Of a stretch of 64,000 nt of DNA, positions 13,265 through 24,339 are shown one piece after another. The notes under the pieces were generated by a model that did not search any database, was not told the DNA's origin, and was given only the letters and a program-made list of their open reading frames with translations. The position numbers were made by a program, and so were the translations under genes. Each line of letters begins with the position of its first letter. The first letter of the stretch is position 1. The DNA comes from Yoonia sp. (GTDB lineage Bacteria > Pseudomonadota > Alphaproteobacteria > Rhodobacterales > Rhodobacteraceae), in NCBI RefSeq assembly GCF_018402175.1, contig NZ_JAGYJK010000017.1, forward strand, positions 310,001-374,000. The letters run 5' to 3'.

Positions 13265-14254
13265 TCAAAGAAGGGCGGCGGTTGGTGTGATATGGCCGGT
13301 CACGCGGCCATCCCAGTTCAGCACCGGCGGCGTCATCCGTGCGCGGGCGGCGGGGTGATCCGCGTTCAACACACCCAGCTTGACCAGAATCGCGGCCATC
13401 GCGCATTCGCTGGCCCGCGTCGCACCATCGGTGATCTTGAGCGCGACACCCAGCCGCTTTTCGGGGATAATCGCGATAAACACGCCTTCGGCCCCGGTTT
13501 TCACCGCGACCTTGCCACCCATCGCGCGCATCAGATCGGTGCAGGCGCGGCCCTGCCCTGCGACCAGTTCGGGAAAGGCCATCATGGCCGAGGTCAGTTT
13601 CTGCGCCGCCGTGCTGCGGGTGTCGGACCGGTCCTGCGCCGAGGCGAAAAACGCCATCGCGCGGGCCAGACCATGCACCGTGCAGGCATGGTTGGGGGCG
13701 GTGCAACCGTCGATGCCGAAACCGGGGCTGGTTTCGCCCGTGACCTCCTCGAACGCTTGTTTGCAGGCGACCTGCACGGGATGGTCGATCTCGGTATATT
13801 CCGGCCCTGCCTGCAGATGCTTGGTCAGCGTCAGGAAACCGGCATGCTTGCCCGAACAATTGTTGTGGATGCGGCAGGGTTCGGCCTGCGCGCGGATCAT
13901 CGACAGATACAGGTCCTTGTCGCGCGACGCCTGCGGGCCGCAGCGGAAATCGTCATCCCCCAGCCCCATTTCGGCCAGCCAATCGCCCACCATCGCCACA
14001 TGCAAAGGCGCGCCTTCATGCGAGGCGCAGGCCAGTGCCAGCTGTTCGCCTTTCAGATGCGCGCCTGCGCCGCTTTCAAGCAGAGGCAGCGCCTGCAACA
14101 TCTTGCACGATGACCGCGGATAAATGACCGCCTGGGGATTGCCCCAGGCCTGCACGATCGCGCCATTGTGATCGCAGACCACGGCATGGCCCTGATGCAG
14201 GCTTTCGACCATATCGCCGCGCCAGACTTCGACCAGATCAACGGGATGTGTCAT
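13265..14254 (-). CDS. L-asparaginase of the Rhizobium etli (ReAV / PF06089) type
   Basis: A 329-residue enzyme expected to hydrolyse L-asparagine to aspartate and ammonia. It belongs to the family unrelated to E. coli AnsA/AnsB. By alignment from memory with R. etli ReAV, the catalytic Ser48xxLys51 pair is present in PRSSCK. The zinc-site residues are Cys133 and Lys136 in NCSGKHAG and Cys184 in DGCTAPNH. Cytoplasmic, with no signal peptide. It heads an apparent three-gene unit with xth and the MDR reductase, with its promoter in the 196-base gap shared with the divergent IalB-like gene. Confidence 0.88.
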   Translation of the reverse strand: MTHPVDLVEVWRGDMVESLHQGHAVVCDHNGAIVQAWGNPQAVIYPRSSCKMLQALPLLESGAGAHLKGEQLALACASHEGAPLHVAMVGDWLAEMGLGDDDFRCGPQASRDKDLYLSMIRAQAEPCRIHNNCSGKHAGFLTLTKHLQAGPEYTEIDHPVQVACKQAFEEVTGETSPGFGIDGCTAPNHACTVHGLARAMAFFASAQDRSDTRSTAAQKLTSAMMAFPELVAGQGRACTDLMRAMGGKVAVKTGAEGVFIAIIPEKRLGVALKITDGATRASECAMAAILVKLGVLNADHPAARARMTPPVLNWDGRVTGHITPTAALL

Positions 14255-15004: not shown

Positions 15005-15037
15005 GCCTCCGGCGGGGATATTTATACTCGGAAGATG
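15005..15037 (+). repeat. Dispersed 3-prime element, copy 2 (type A)
   Basis: A 33-base element starting GCCTCCGGCGGGGATATTT and ending CTCGGAAGATG, 24 bases after the IalB-like stop and on the same strand. It matches copy 3 (21346-21378, minus strand) at 30 of 33 positions; only the three bases after the TATTT differ. It shares the layout GC block, TATTT, GGAA with the type B copies. Confidence 0.7.
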
Positions 15038-19522: not shown

Positions 19523-20389
19523 TTAAACCGCCACTTTGCGGCTTTCATCCAGATAAATCTCGCGCAGGCGCGCGGCGACAGGTCCGGGCGCACCAGTCCC
19601 AACAGCGGCCCCGTCGATTTCCACCACCGGCATGACAAACATGCTGGCCGAGGTGATAAAGGCCTCATCGGCGGCCTGCGCCTCGGCGATGGAAAAGCTG
19701 CGTTCTTCGACCTGCATCTGCGCCTCGTGGGCAAAACGCAGCACGGCGGCGCGGGTGATGCCATGCAGAATCTCATTGCCCAGATGGCGGGTGATGATCG
19801 TATTGCCCTTGACGATATAGGCATTGTTGGACGTGCCTTCGGTCACCATCCCGTCCTCGACCATCCATGCGTCATCGACACCGGCCGCCTTGGCCATCAT
19901 CTTGCCCATCGACGGATAGAGCAGCTGCACCGTCTTGATATCCCGCCGCGTCCAGCGTTGATCTTCAATCGAGATGACCTTGATCCCCTTTTGCGCCATG
20001 GGGCTATTGGCAAGGCCCGGCTTGTTCTGGGTGAACAGCACAACCGTCGGCGTGCAGGTTGCAGGGTCAGGGAACACGAAATCACGATCACCGGGCGCGC
20101 CACGGGTGATCTGCAGATAGATCATGCCTTCCTCGATCCCGTTCAGGCGCACCAATTCGCGGTGAATCTCCAGCAGATCGGGCAGGCAGGCGGGATGCGG
20201 CATGTCGAGTTCGTTCAAGGACCGTTCCAGCCGCTTGGCGTGACCGGCGAAATCGATCAGCTTGCCATCCAGCACCGATGTGACCTCATACACGCCATCG
20301 GCCATCAGGAACCCGCGGTCAAAGATCGAAATCGTGGCTTCGTTTTCGGGCAGATAGGTGCCGTTGACATAGACTGTGCGCATATTCAT
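19523..20389 (-). CDS. dat: D-amino acid aminotransferase
   Basis: A 288-residue fold-type IV PLP enzyme that moves the amino group between D-amino acids and 2-oxo acids, typically D-alanine + 2-oxoglutarate to pyruvate + D-glutamate. The PLP lysine is Lys152 in RRDIKTVQLL, the family's DIKS/T context. SIFDRGFLMADGVYE, VTEGTSNNAY and GITR further support the fold. A branched-chain or 4-amino-4-deoxychorismate lyase role is less likely given that lysine context and the neighbours. The start was set by ATGA overlap with the dgcA stop (MNMRTVYV). Confidence 0.9.
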   Translation of the reverse strand: MNMRTVYVNGTYLPENEATISIFDRGFLMADGVYEVTSVLDGKLIDFAGHAKRLERSLNELDMPHPACLPDLLEIHRELVRLNGIEEGMIYLQITRGAPGDRDFVFPDPATCTPTVVLFTQNKPGLANSPMAQKGIKVISIEDQRWTRRDIKTVQLLYPSMGKMMAKAAGVDDAWMVEDGMVTEGTSNNAYIVKGNTIITRHLGNEILHGITRAAVLRFAHEAQMQVEERSFSIAEAQAADEAFITSASMFVMPVVEIDGAAVGTGAPGPVAARLREIYLDESRKVAV

Positions 20390-21345
20390 CCCCAAAGGTC
20401 GGCGGCGGGCGGATGCACGCCGTTGTCGTCAAAGTGCAAAGGTGCAGCACGGTCTTCGGCCAATAACAGCGGCCCGTCAAGGTCCGTGAAGGCCACGCCC
20501 TGCGCCAGAATCGTCGCAGGGGCCATCGCCAGCGATGATCCGACCATGCAACCGACCATGATCGCATATCCTTCGGCCTGCGCCTGCGCCTTCAGCGCCA
20601 GCGCCTCGGTCAGCCCGCCGGTCTTGTCCAGCTTGATATTTACCATGTCATATTTGCCGCGCAGGGCGGGCAGGCTGGCACGGTCATGGCAGCTTTCATC
20701 GGCGCAAACGGGCAAGGGCCGCGCGATTTCGCCCAGCATGTCATCCGCCCCCGCAGGCAGCGGCTGTTCAACCATCTGCACGCCAAGCCGGATCAGATGG
20801 GGCGCCAGATCGGCGTAAACTTCGGCCGTCCAGCCTTCATTGGCATCGACGATGATGCGGGCAGCGGGCGCGCCACGGCGCACAGCCTCCAGCCGCGCCA
20901 TGTCATCGGGCGTGCCCAGCTTGATCTTCAACAGCGGGCGATGCGCGTTTTGCGCCGCCTGCGCCTGCATCGCCGCGGGCGTGTCCAGCGACAGGGTATA
21001 GGCAGTGATCGCAGGGCGCGGCGCGGGCAGACCCAACAAGTCCCAGACGCGTTTACCTGCCTTTTTCGCCGCATGATCCCAGAACGCGCAATCCAGCGCA
21101 TTGCGCGCGGCCCCTGCAGGCAGGGTGTCCTGCAAATCCGCCCAGCCCCCTGTAAATCCGGCAATCTGCGCCGTCACATTGTCCAATGTCTCGCCGTAGC
21201 GGGCATAAGGCACACATTCACCGCGCCCCGCCACCCCCTGCAACGCCATGGTCACGGTCAAAACCTCCGCCGCGGTCCGCGACCCGCGACTGATGGTAAA
21301 GACCTGCGCCAAACGAAACACATCGCGTTTTATATCGACCTTCAT
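20386..21345 (-). CDS. dgcA: N-acetyl-D-glutamate racemase / dipeptide epimerase-like enolase-superfamily enzyme (DgcA)
   Basis: A 319-residue enolase-superfamily (muconate-lactonizing subgroup) racemase. The base pair Lys140xLys142 is in LKIKLG. Metal ligands are Asp167 (VDANEGW), Glu193 (VEQPL) and Asp216 (ADES), and the opposite base lies in NIKLDKTGG. The same fold includes L-Ala-D/L-Glu epimerases of murein recycling. The adjacent DUF1611 gene favours the DgcA assignment, which I recall as racemising N-acetyl-D-glutamate. The start codon sits immediately after a dispersed 33-base repeat whose GGAAG may serve as ribosome site; an ATG at 21348 is equally possible. Confidence 0.82.
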   Translation of the reverse strand: MKVDIKRDVFRLAQVFTISRGSRTAAEVLTVTMALQGVAGRGECVPYARYGETLDNVTAQIAGFTGGWADLQDTLPAGAARNALDCAFWDHAAKKAGKRVWDLLGLPAPRPAITAYTLSLDTPAAMQAQAAQNAHRPLLKIKLGTPDDMARLEAVRRGAPAARIIVDANEGWTAEVYADLAPHLIRLGVQMVEQPLPAGADDMLGEIARPLPVCADESCHDRASLPALRGKYDMVNIKLDKTGGLTEALALKAQAQAEGYAIMVGCMVGSSLAMAPATILAQGVAFTDLDGPLLLAEDRAAPLHFDDNGVHPPAADLWG

Positions 21346-21378
21346 CATCTTCCGAGCCCAAATATCCCCGCCGGAGGC
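21346..21378 (-). repeat. Dispersed 3-prime element, copy 3 (type A)
   Basis: On the minus strand it reads GCCTCCGGCGGGGATATTTG and ends CTCGGAAGATG. It differs from copy 2 (15005-15037) only in three bases after TATTT. It begins 25 bases after the dgcN stop and abuts the dgcA start. A separate small hairpin (GGATTTC-TGGC-GAAATCC, about 21381-21398) lies between the dgcN stop and the element. Confidence 0.7.
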
Positions 21379-21403
21379 GTCGGATTTCGCCAGAAATCCG
21401 GCA

Positions 21404-22405
21404 TCAAATCCCCTCCAGCGCGTCAACCAACCGCGCCGCCCCCTGCCGGAACGTATCGACAGTCGGCAGGCCCATCCGGCCTTCGACCTCGGCCAGATAG
21501 GCCAAAGCGTCCTCCTCGGACAGATGCTGCGTGTTGACCGAAACGCCCACGATCTGACAGGCCGGATTGGCAATGCGGGCAATCGGCAAAACCATGTCGC
21601 GCAACGCCTCAAGGCTCGGCAGGGCATAGCCCGGCAATCCGCGCATATGCTTGCGCGTCGGTTCATGCGCCAGCACCAGCGCGTCGGGCTGGCCGCCATG
21701 GATCAGGGCCATTGTCACGCCGGAATAGGACACATGGAACAGGCTGCCCTGTCCTTCGATATGGTCCCAATGGTCGGGGTCGTTGTCGGGGGTCAGGTAT
21801 TCGACCGCACCCGCCATGAAATCCGCGACCACCGCATCCAGCGGCACACCGCCGCCGGTGATCAGAATGCCGGTCTGGCCGGTGGGGCGAAAGGTCGATT
21901 TCATGCCACGCTTGCGCATCTCGATATCCATGGCAAGGCCGGTATACATCTTGCCCACCGAACAATCGGTGCCGACGGCCAGACAGCGTTTGCCGGTGCG
22001 TTTGACGCCATTGGCGATCGGATAGGCGACCGATGGCACGCGCACGTCGAACAACGACCGCCCATGCGCGCGGGCGGCAGCGACCAGATCAGCCTCGTCA
22101 CGCAGCAGGTTGTGCAGGCCGGACGCCAAATCGAACCCCAGCGCGAGTGCTTGCAACAGCACCTGTTTCCACGCGGCAGAGATCACGCCGCCACGATTGG
22201 CCACACCGATGACCAGCGTCTGGGCACCGGCGGCCTTGGCCTGGTCCAGCGTCATGTCAGCAATGCCGACATCGGCACCACAGCCGGGCATCCGGTACTG
22301 GCCCACGGCATTCTGCGGGCGCCAGTCCTTGATTCCCTGCGCCACCTTTGCGGCCAGCTGGTCAGGCGCATCGCCCAGAAACAAAAGGTAAGGGGTCTGG
22401 ATCAT
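21404..22405 (-). CDS. dgcN: DUF1611 family protein, D-glutamate N-acetyltransferase (DgcN)
   Basis: A 333-residue protein of the DUF1611 family. An N-terminal Rossmann-like domain (about 1-115) is followed by a P-loop-like segment GTDCSVGKM (about 145-153), then ITGGGVPLDAVV and EGQGSLFHVSYSGVT. My recollection is that members were named DgcN and described as N-acetylating D-glutamate in marine bacteria, working with DgcA; I could not verify this here. It is the first gene of the dgcN-dgcA-dat unit. A 7-bp inverted repeat lies 81-113 bases upstream of its start. The 226-base region to amtB holds that repeat and the amtB terminator. Confidence 0.85.
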   Translation of the reverse strand: MIQTPYLLFLGDAPDQLAAKVAQGIKDWRPQNAVGQYRMPGCGADVGIADMTLDQAKAAGAQTLVIGVANRGGVISAAWKQVLLQALALGFDLASGLHNLLRDEADLVAAARAHGRSLFDVRVPSVAYPIANGVKRTGKRCLAVGTDCSVGKMYTGLAMDIEMRKRGMKSTFRPTGQTGILITGGGVPLDAVVADFMAGAVEYLTPDNDPDHWDHIEGQGSLFHVSYSGVTMALIHGGQPDALVLAHEPTRKHMRGLPGYALPSLEALRDMVLPIARIANPACQIVGVSVNTQHLSEEDALAYLAEVEGRMGLPTVDTFRQGAARLVDALEGI

Positions 22406-22582: not shown

Positions 22583-22610
22583 AAAGCCCGGACGCGAACG
22601 CCCGGGCTTT
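22583..22610 (-). terminator. Rho-independent terminator of amtB
   Basis: AAAGCCCGG and CCGGGCTTT form a perfect 9-bp stem around a 10-base loop. It starts 22 bases after the amtB stop and ends with CTTTTG on the minus strand. It is the end of the glnK-amtB transcript. Confidence 0.8.
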
Positions 22611-22631: not shown

Positions 22632-23975
22632 TCAGCTTTTCGAGAACTCAGGATAGGCTTCCATGCCCAGCTCGCTCAGGTCGAGACCGGTGATCTCCGA
22701 TTCCTGGCTGACGCGGATGCCCATCGTCATCTTGAAGATGTACCACACGACCAAGGAGACAAAGAAGGTGAACACACCATAGGCTGCGATACCCGTCAGC
22801 TGCGTCATCAGGCTGGTGCCATCGTTGTAGAAGACAACAGCGATGGTGCCCCAGATACCGGCGAACAGGTGGACAGGAATTGCACCGACGACGTCGTCGA
22901 TCTTGAGCTTGTCCAGCAGCGGCACGGCGAAGACCACGATCGCACCACCAACAGCACCGATCCACAGCGCGCCGAACAGCGACGGATACAGAGGTTCCGC
23001 AGTGATCGCGACCAGACCGGCCAGCGCGCCGTTCAGCACCATGGTCAGATCGACCTTCTTGTACAGGACCTGCGTGAGGATCAGCGCGGTCACCGCACCG
23101 GCAGAGGCTGCCATGTTGGTGTTCGCAAAGATCCGGCCCACATCGGTGATGTCACCCACGGTACCAGCCGCCAGCTGCGACCCGCCGTTGAAACCGAACC
23201 AGCCCAGCCACAGGATGAACGTCCCCAGTGTTGCCAACGCAAGGTTGGAACCGGGCATCGGGTTGACGCGGCCATCCTTATATTTGCCCAGACGTGGACC
23301 CAGCACGATGGCACCAGCCAAAGCAGCCCAGCCACCGACCGAATGCACGATGGTCGATCCGGCAAAGTCGGAAAAGCCCAGTTCGGACAGCCAGCCGCCA
23401 CCCCACTGCCACGACCCCGAAATCGGATACATGAAGCCGGTCAGCACGACGACAAAGGCAAGAAACGGCCAGAGCTTGATCCGCTCAGCCAGCGCACCCG
23501 ACACGATGGATGCAGTGGCCGCAACGAACATCAGCTGAAAGAAAAAGTCGGACGCGACAGATGCGTAATCCAGCGATGCATCGGCGGCAGCCAGACCAAC
23601 AGGTTCCAGCACGGTGACGTTGAAGAAACCACCCACATAGCCGTTGAAATCGCCCGGATACATCAGGTTAAAGCCGACCAGCCAATACATGATGCCCGCG
23701 ATGGAAAACAGCGCGATATTCTTGGTCAGCTGGGTGGTGACGTTCTTGGACCGGACCAGACCGGCCTCCAGCATGGTGAAACCTGCCGCCATCCAGAACA
23801 CCAGAAAGCCGCCCACAAGGAACAGCAGGGTGGTCATAAGATAGGGGCCGATTTCGTCGAATGTGGGCGCGACCTCGGCCATCTCTTCGACAGCCTCGGC
23901 AGCTTCCTGCGCGAAGCCGATGACCGGAAGCAGCGCAAGTCCCGCCCCAAGTGTAATCAGTTTGTTCATATTCAT
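22632..23975 (-). CDS. amtB: Ammonium transporter AmtB
   Basis: A 447-residue inner-membrane ammonium channel. An N-terminal signal-like segment (MNMNKLITLGAGLALLPV...) and a short acidic periplasmic stretch precede about eleven transmembrane helices. The pore histidines are seen in VHSVGGWAALAG and HLFAGIWG, and the family signatures in AGFTMLEAGLVRSKN and FGFNGGSQLAA. The cytoplasmic tail ends EAYPEFSKS. GAGG lies nine bases before the chosen ATG. It follows glnK by 25 bases, the near-universal glnK-amtB pairing in which GlnK plugs the channel when nitrogen is ample. Confidence 0.97.
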   Translation of the reverse strand: MNMNKLITLGAGLALLPVIGFAQEAAEAVEEMAEVAPTFDEIGPYLMTTLLFLVGGFLVFWMAAGFTMLEAGLVRSKNVTTQLTKNIALFSIAGIMYWLVGFNLMYPGDFNGYVGGFFNVTVLEPVGLAAADASLDYASVASDFFFQLMFVAATASIVSGALAERIKLWPFLAFVVVLTGFMYPISGSWQWGGGWLSELGFSDFAGSTIVHSVGGWAALAGAIVLGPRLGKYKDGRVNPMPGSNLALATLGTFILWLGWFGFNGGSQLAAGTVGDITDVGRIFANTNMAASAGAVTALILTQVLYKKVDLTMVLNGALAGLVAITAEPLYPSLFGALWIGAVGGAIVVFAVPLLDKLKIDDVVGAIPVHLFAGIWGTIAVVFYNDGTSLMTQLTGIAAYGVFTFFVSLVVWYIFKMTMGIRVSQESEITGLDLSELGMEAYPEFSKS

Positions 23976-24000
23976 GGATTTGTTCCTCGTTGCGCCGCGA

Positions 24001-24339
24001 TCACAGCGCGTCATCATTGGTCTCGCCGGTGCGCACGCGCACAGCGCTTTGCACGTCGAGAACGAAAACCTTGCCGTCGCCGATCTTGTCGGTCTTGGCG
24101 GTGGTGGTGATGGTAGACACGACCTGATCGGCCATGCTGTCAGGCACGACGATCTCGAGCTTCACCTTGGGCACGAAGTTCACGGCATATTCCGCGCCGC
24201 GATAGATTTCCGTATGGCCCGACTGCGATCCGAACCCCTTGATTTCTGACACCATCATGCCGCGCACGCCGACGGTGGTCAGCGCTTCGCGGACCTCCTC
24301 GAGCTTGAACGGCTTGATTGTTGCAATGATGAGTTTCAC
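24001..24339 (-). CDS. glnK: Nitrogen regulatory protein P-II (GlnK)
   Basis: A 112-residue P-II protein that binds ATP/ADP and 2-oxoglutarate and signals nitrogen status to AmtB, the adenylyltransferase and NtrB. The T-loop has the uridylylation site Tyr51 in YRGAEY. Also visible are IIATIKPFKLEEV, GVRGMMVSE and the B-loop GDGKVFV. The start is a GTG placed six bases after GAGGGG, which gives exactly the canonical 112 residues. A perfect 10-bp direct repeat lies 127-147 bases upstream. Confidence 0.96.
   Translation of the reverse strand: MKLIIATIKPFKLEEVREALTTVGVRGMMVSEIKGFGSQSGHTEIYRGAEYAVNFVPKVKLEIVVPDSMADQVVSTITTTAKTDKIGDGKVFVLDVQSAVRVRTGETNDDAL

Follow-up and report, generated by a model that had tools for sequence, protein, structure and literature searches.

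A predicted dgcN-dgcA-dat operon for D-glutamate conversion in Yoonia sp. and its linkage across the Rhodobacteraceae

The D-alanine (D-Ala) and D-glutamate (D-Glu) of dead cell walls make up a large reservoir of organic nitrogen in the sea that turns over slowly. The described systems closest to the locus presented here, a dgcN-dgcA-dat operon of Yoonia sp., are the DgcN-DgcA D-Glu pathway, whose reactions were reportedly described in Pseudoalteromonas sp. CF6-2 by Yu and co-workers in 2023 and whose LysR regulator, DgcR, is said to be encoded beside dgcN-dgcA, and the D-Ala catabolism via a D-Ala aminotransferase that Yu and co-workers reportedly described in the same strain in 2022. The operon lies in a stretch of 64,000 nucleotides (hereafter, the window) of contig NZ_JAGYJK010000017.1, from a genome (G000) of 3.0 Mb in 18 contigs with a completeness of 99.7%. 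Judged by DgcN, the closest named relative is Yoonia vestfoldensis SKA53 (95% identity), which places the genome in the Rhodobacteraceae. Two further papers mention the DgcN-DgcA pathway (PMC10845958; PMC12363236). In a third (PMC11747546), growth on both D-Ala and D-Glu is described for the Rhodobacteraceae strain LCG007, in which all three activities are annotated; its likeness to the window lies in these annotations. No description of dat adjoining dgcN-dgcA was found in the open-licence literature searched, which consisted mostly of titles and the beginnings of abstracts; the primary CF6-2 paper may show it. The enzyme pathway had already been published, and systems of this kind are known, whereas the form of the operon is a variant specific to the family; the dat linkage and the cases lacking glutamate racemase described below appear to be new.

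Three minus-strand genes, as read in a preliminary description of this DNA, were borne out by our reading of the sequence: dgcN (21404–22405; 333 amino acids), dgcA (20386–21348; 320 amino acids), and dat (19523–20389). They encode a predicted D-glutamate N-acetyltransferase of the DUF1611 type, a predicted N-acetyl-D-glutamate racemase of the enolase superfamily, and a predicted fold-type IV D-amino-acid transaminase, respectively. DgcN passed the NCBIfam equivalog model NF041892 over residues 5–330 (544.7 bits; cut-off 480), carried both DUF1611 domains of Pfam (N-terminal PF17396 and C-terminal PF07755), and had PDB 7xrj_A as its best solved relative (584 bits). DgcA passed the equivalog model NF042940 (488 bits; cut-off 400). 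For Dat, the score exceeded the cut-off of the subfamily model NF005209 “D-amino-acid transaminase” (PRK06680; 368.2 bits; cut-off 320), the domain was PF01063, and the closest solved relatives were D-alanine/D-amino-acid aminotransferases. The family assignments of the preliminary description therefore stand for all three proteins. The locus resembles the CF6-2 DgcN-DgcA system in that both proteins pass the equivalog models and dgcN directly precedes dgcA; it differs in the addition of dat on the 3′ side, as in nearly all surveyed dgcN-bearing Rhodobacteraceae. As in the CF6-2 D-Ala route, its Dat would make D-Glu from D-Ala. In the window, dat shares an operon with the genes predicted to remove D-Glu. 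The coupling of dgcA and dat by ATGA, noted earlier, is present at 20389–20386, where the dgcA stop codon overlaps the dat ATG if the first ATG is used; translation of dat might instead begin at a second in-frame ATG (20383) or at a TTG (20395). The dgcA gene starts with the ATG at 21348 (or 21345), 55 bp from dgcN.

The explanation we favor, with moderate confidence, is that the operon is a D-Glu module in which Dat interconverts D-Ala and D-Glu, and DgcN and DgcA drain D-Glu irreversibly to N-acetyl-L-glutamate (N-acetyl-L-Glu). The three genes would probably turn D-Ala and D-Glu into an L-glutamate derivative. Dat, a reversible enzyme dependent on pyridoxal phosphate (PLP), would exchange amino groups between D-Glu and D-Ala, and perhaps between D-Glu and further D-amino acids. 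DgcN would then acetylate D-Glu with acetyl-CoA, making the route one-way, and DgcA would epimerize N-acetyl-D-Glu to N-acetyl-L-Glu, which would enter arginine synthesis or be deacetylated by an enzyme encoded elsewhere. Where murein-derived D-Ala or D-Glu serves as food, the module would funnel nitrogen and carbon into the cell's metabolism; in other conditions, it would keep the D-Glu level down. The substrates of Dat, its direction in the cell, and the fate of N-acetyl-L-Glu are what we infer from the sequences. The curated models, the linkage across the family, the invariant residues, the genes for ArgJ and an ArgE/DapE-type deacylase found elsewhere on the chromosomal contigs, the gene neighborhoods described below, and the growth of LCG007 are consistent with such a module.

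How often dat adjoins dgcN-dgcA, a question raised by the preliminary description, was surveyed in 198 genomes of the family, with adjacency counted among the matches listed. DgcN scored above the cut-off in 149 genomes, DgcA in 170, and Dat in 187. Of the 134 genomes with both dgcN and dgcA listed, 130 had the start of dgcA no more than 300 bp beyond dgcN; the two genes were on separate contigs in three of the remaining genomes and 64 kb apart in one. Where all three genes were listed (111 genomes), dat lay 3′ of dgcA at a distance of up to 3.2 kb in 108/111; this distance was no more than 300 bp in 85 genomes and larger in the remaining 23. In the other three, dat was on the opposite strand 2.4 kb off (one genome) or on another contig (two genomes). 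A second set comprised 80 named Rhodobacteraceae loci, which ranked highest among 525 relatives and are hence all close; it overlaps with the first set (for instance, loci L114 and L129 lie on equally long contigs), and the counts were not summed. All 76 uninterrupted named loci had dat 3′ on the same strand, no more than 310 bp away in 58 and at most 2115 bp away, and the other four of the 80 stopped at a contig edge. Gene counts at the loci rest on tblastn, since gene maps hid some genes (dgcA in several loci). The linkage of dat with dgcN-dgcA in the Rhodobacteraceae is far beyond chance. Its absence from relatives, which the preliminary description had named as a refuting outcome, was not borne out. 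The linkage predicts that roseobacters are able to route D-Ala, and perhaps further D-amino acids, by way of D-Glu, and it makes dgcN-dgcA-dat a three-gene marker for metagenomes.

Residues were compared in alignments of matches with more than 180 bits and more than 80% coverage in the fetched loci, together with the sequence from the window. The DgcA alignment held 101 sequences; 15 of them came from dgcN-less genomes, and 22 belonged to loci beyond the Rhodobacteraceae. In agreement with the preliminary description, which had found all catalytic residues in place, K141 and K143 (KxK), the metal ligands D168, E194, and D217, and K239 were invariant (101/101). The fold, the catalytic residues, and a DxD motif are shared with the Escherichia coli L-Ala-D/L-Glu epimerase (PDB 1jpd), which was the second-nearest solved structure to DgcA after PDB 4gfi. 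The DxD, the ammonium-binding motif of dipeptide epimerases, was also invariant in all 101 sequences; DgcA may therefore act on L-Ala-D-Glu, which the preliminary description had listed among the outcomes that would refute its reading. An alternative reading is that the main task of DgcA in the Rhodobacteraceae is to epimerize L-Ala-D/L-Glu in murein peptides, with dgcN as an add-on. In addition to the motif and the structural relative, it could draw on at least 15 genomes that carry dgcA-dat with no DgcN match, together with the fact that no DgcA position cleanly separates sequences of dgcN-bearing genomes from those of dgcN-less ones (the best column separates them partly). However, DgcA passed its own model and failed the E. 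coli-type epimerase model NF011708 (309.8 bits; cut-off 343), its gene adjoins dgcN in almost every genome with both genes listed, and the pair recurs in other classes. We regard a DgcA that works mainly on dipeptides as improbable. For Dat, the PLP-binding lysine of the DIKT motif, which the preliminary description had pointed out, was invariant (94/94), and so were the Tyr and Arg aligned with carboxylate-binding residues of the Bacillus-type D-amino-acid aminotransferase (PDB 1daa), Tyr31 and Arg98. Fold, lysine (DIK), and these two residues make up the likeness to the Bacillus-type enzyme.

The preliminary description had stated that a dedicated deacylase would be needed and is not present. 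None is encoded in the operon, and in that part the statement holds; the gap is smaller than it implied, since the genome encodes, elsewhere, ArgJ (376.7 bits; cut-off 298) and an ArgE/DapE-type deacylase (771.9 bits; cut-off 428), as well as other M20 enzymes. Because arginine synthesis normally passes through N-acetyl-L-Glu, the route could do without a deacylase of its own. A deacylase inside the operons of relatives was considered and rejected: the genes between dgcA and dat in the exceptional loci varied (by eye, ilvD-like, exonuclease-like, and others), and a Pfam search of two of them gave one phosphoesterase and one weak Peptidase_S9 match below the cut-off. A gene of the N-formylglutamate amidohydrolase family was present beyond dat in 75 of 134 dgcN-dgcA-dat loci, convergent with dat where mapped; this is a lead only, and the gene used as a query had no match in the window.

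Several observations weigh against the D-Glu module as formulated here. Dat scored below the cut-off of the equivalog TIGR01121 (222.6 bits; cut-off 277.45), and the position aligned with His100 of the Bacillus enzyme was Phe in 94/94 sequences; in both respects the protein is unlike the Bacillus-type enzyme. The genome also encodes a DadA-like oxidoreductase (322.9 bits, below the cut-off of 383), so that Dat need not be the sole D-Ala route. The dat linkage is nearly confined to the Rhodobacteraceae. In a sample of 249 genomes of the phylum, DgcN was matched in 37 and scored above the cut-off in 33; we fetched 24 loci from outside the family (21 above the DgcN cut-off and three below, with weak G211 and G335 omitted) and found, using tblastn, DgcA in 22/24 and Dat in a single locus, from another class. 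Finally, the dgcA-dat genomes with no DgcN match, five of which were directly without a match and 10 of which were identified by subtracting the 153 positive and the 20 listed genomes from the 198, together with loci that carry dat alone at the same site, suggest that dat has a role outside the funnel.

The variation at that site can be followed through its flanks. In relatives, one side of the operon often carries accA (named by eye) and an HpcH/HpaI aldolase gene, and the other carries DUF1244, an N-formylglutamate amidohydrolase-family gene, and a pyruvate kinase gene, pyk (named by eye). With markers of both sides, the same syntenic site held dgcN-dgcA-dat in 80/134 loci of this type, dgcA-dat in 9/19, and dat alone in 5/15, the counts being limited by contig ends. 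The dgcN gene was present elsewhere in the genome for four of the 19 dgcA-dat loci (G005, G062, G114, and G153), none of them among the nine, and on another contig for four of the 15 dat-alone loci (G054, G137, G186, and G194), none of them among the five. None of the five flank markers was found in the window. On the DgcA tree, which is poorly resolved and was built by a quick method, the dgcN-less state needs six changes, two of them forced by well-supported branches. Thus, dgcN and dgcA are optional around a near-universal dat. The “complete funnel” of the preliminary description is supported in its gene identities, layout, and linkage and is plausible as a whole, but dgcN, dgcA, and dat do not always occur together, and in genomes without glutamate racemase Dat may have to make D-Glu. 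Two further candidates were rejected. The genes directly 5′ of dgcA in dgcN-less genomes varied, and among the sequences read by eye no shared acetyltransferase that could replace DgcN was seen. The conserved gene divergent from dgcN in many relatives, considered as a regulator, belongs to the HpcH/HpaI aldolase family (one member scanned).

The role of dat beyond the funnel bears on the supply of D-Glu to the wall. A match to the glutamate racemase model TIGR00067 (E ≤ 1e-3) was found in 181/198 family genomes, 56 of them above the cut-off; the racemase of the window's genome scored 139.9 bits against a cut-off of 146.65. The 17 genomes with no match included seven with a completeness of 95% or more and a contamination of no more than 5% (G001, G015, G083, G090, G101, G136, and G160). 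Dat scored above the cut-off in all seven (six listed directly and G090 by elimination). In five of them (G001, G015, G083, G101, and G160), dat was part of a dgcN-dgcA-dat operon; G136 had dat without dgcN-dgcA above their cut-offs, and G090 had dgcN-dgcA without dat within the 14 kb fetched. A search for the Asp/Glu-racemase superfamily in 19 genomes returned members in 13 and none in G090. Nine superfamily proteins from racemase-less genomes (the G160 member excluded) reached at best 25.4 bits as glutamate racemase (G136), compared with 140.2 bits for the racemase of the window's genome in the same comparison. As a side observation, genome G185 (loci L074 and L255; 93% complete) had neither a glutamate racemase match nor Dat above the cut-off and retained DgcA and a below-cut-off DgcN on different contigs.

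D-Glu auxotrophy in Staphylococcus aureus requires the loss of both murI and dat (PMC5458566); a Dat can thus feed the wall. Together with the prevalence of Dat in the family, higher than that of DgcN, the racemase-less genomes with dat, and the low superfamily scores, this precedent argues for a second alternative, in which Dat primarily supplies D-Glu for murein (D-Ala + 2-oxoglutarate → D-Glu + pyruvate), DgcN-DgcA serves as an overflow valve, and external D-amino acids are secondary. We consider this alternative unlikely: most genomes, including that of the window, have a racemase match and would not need Dat for D-Glu, the scan covered only some of the superfamily proteins that the racemase-less genomes encode, and a valve that drains what a cotranscribed neighbor makes would waste resources if it were not regulated. 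The D-Glu module remains our preferred reading of the operon in the window. For the racemase-less genomes, the sequences suggest that Dat may be the sole source of wall D-Glu of a known type. A narrower proposal, which we put forward only tentatively, is that in some racemase-less Rhodobacteraceae the operon's Dat is the only source of wall D-Glu, with DgcN-DgcA from the same transcript acting as a brake. If this were true, the operon would go beyond scavenging and be a D-Glu homeostasis switch replacing MurI, and Dat would be essential in these strains. Racemase-less genomes reduce the question of how a wall obtains D-Glu without MurI to a single gene deletion.

Outside the Rhodobacteraceae, the surroundings of dgcN-dgcA, whose genes were named by Pfam on one or two members per gene cluster, fit a use of D-Glu and murein peptides. 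At L237, L241, and L244, dgcN-dgcA was followed by genes for a sodium:dicarboxylate symporter and a Peptidase_S13 (D-Ala-D-Ala carboxypeptidase), a candidate set for D-Glu uptake and murein trimming. At L238, genes for M19 dipeptidase-type proteins, beta-lactamase-family proteins, and TonB receptors surrounded dgcN. The only dgcN-dgcA-dat locus among the 24, L226 (genome G356), was situated between a catalase gene and a transposase gene, which hints at transfer. A LysR gene stood beside dgcN in 11/24 of these loci, with two LysR proteins from such loci as queries. Unlike in CF6-2, the same two queries found no LysR gene within 1.5 kb of dgcN in 141 family loci and none near dgcN in the window, where the sole match, a weak one, was at 48.7–49.1 kb; the search did not extend to a DgcR encoded far from the operon.

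In the window, the operon is located 3′ of glnK-amtB and is convergent with a tetrahydrodipicolinate succinyltransferase gene. The ammonium transporter gene amtB (22632–24017, minus strand; PF00909, 357 bits) is immediately 5′ of dgcN and is itself preceded by glnK (24001–24339, minus strand), which encodes a P-II protein (PF00543, 101.2 bits). The same arrangement directly 5′ of dgcN was present in 12/200 loci, in which DgcN was 82–95% identical to that of the window. This neighborhood would fit a tie to nitrogen supply. A terminator-like hairpin in the amtB/dgcN intergenic region (22586–22599, minus strand), identified by consensus match only, suggests that dgcN may begin its own transcript; such sites numbered four in the window against a mean of 4.8 in shuffles and were therefore no commoner than in shuffled sequence. 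About 5 kb from dat, an L-asparaginase II gene was found at 13265–14254 on the minus strand (PF06089, 369.1 bits). It was also seen near dgcN in one other locus, that of the closest relative, most other loci being too short to show it.

The gap between dgcN and dgcA contains one copy (21356–21378, minus strand) of a 22-bp dispersed intergenic repeat, GCCTCCGGCGGGGATATTTGGG, and a second copy lies at 15005–15027 on the plus strand of the window. With up to two mismatches, the repeat occurred 54 times in the genome, compared with 0 for a reversed control. Its 12-base core was present in 21/153 dgcN-dgcA gaps and 0/105 dgcA-dat gaps of partly overlapping loci. No Rfam family was above the threshold anywhere in the window. 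By eye, the repeat resembles the arm of a G+C hairpin, with TATTT next to it and then an end similar to a ribosome-binding site.

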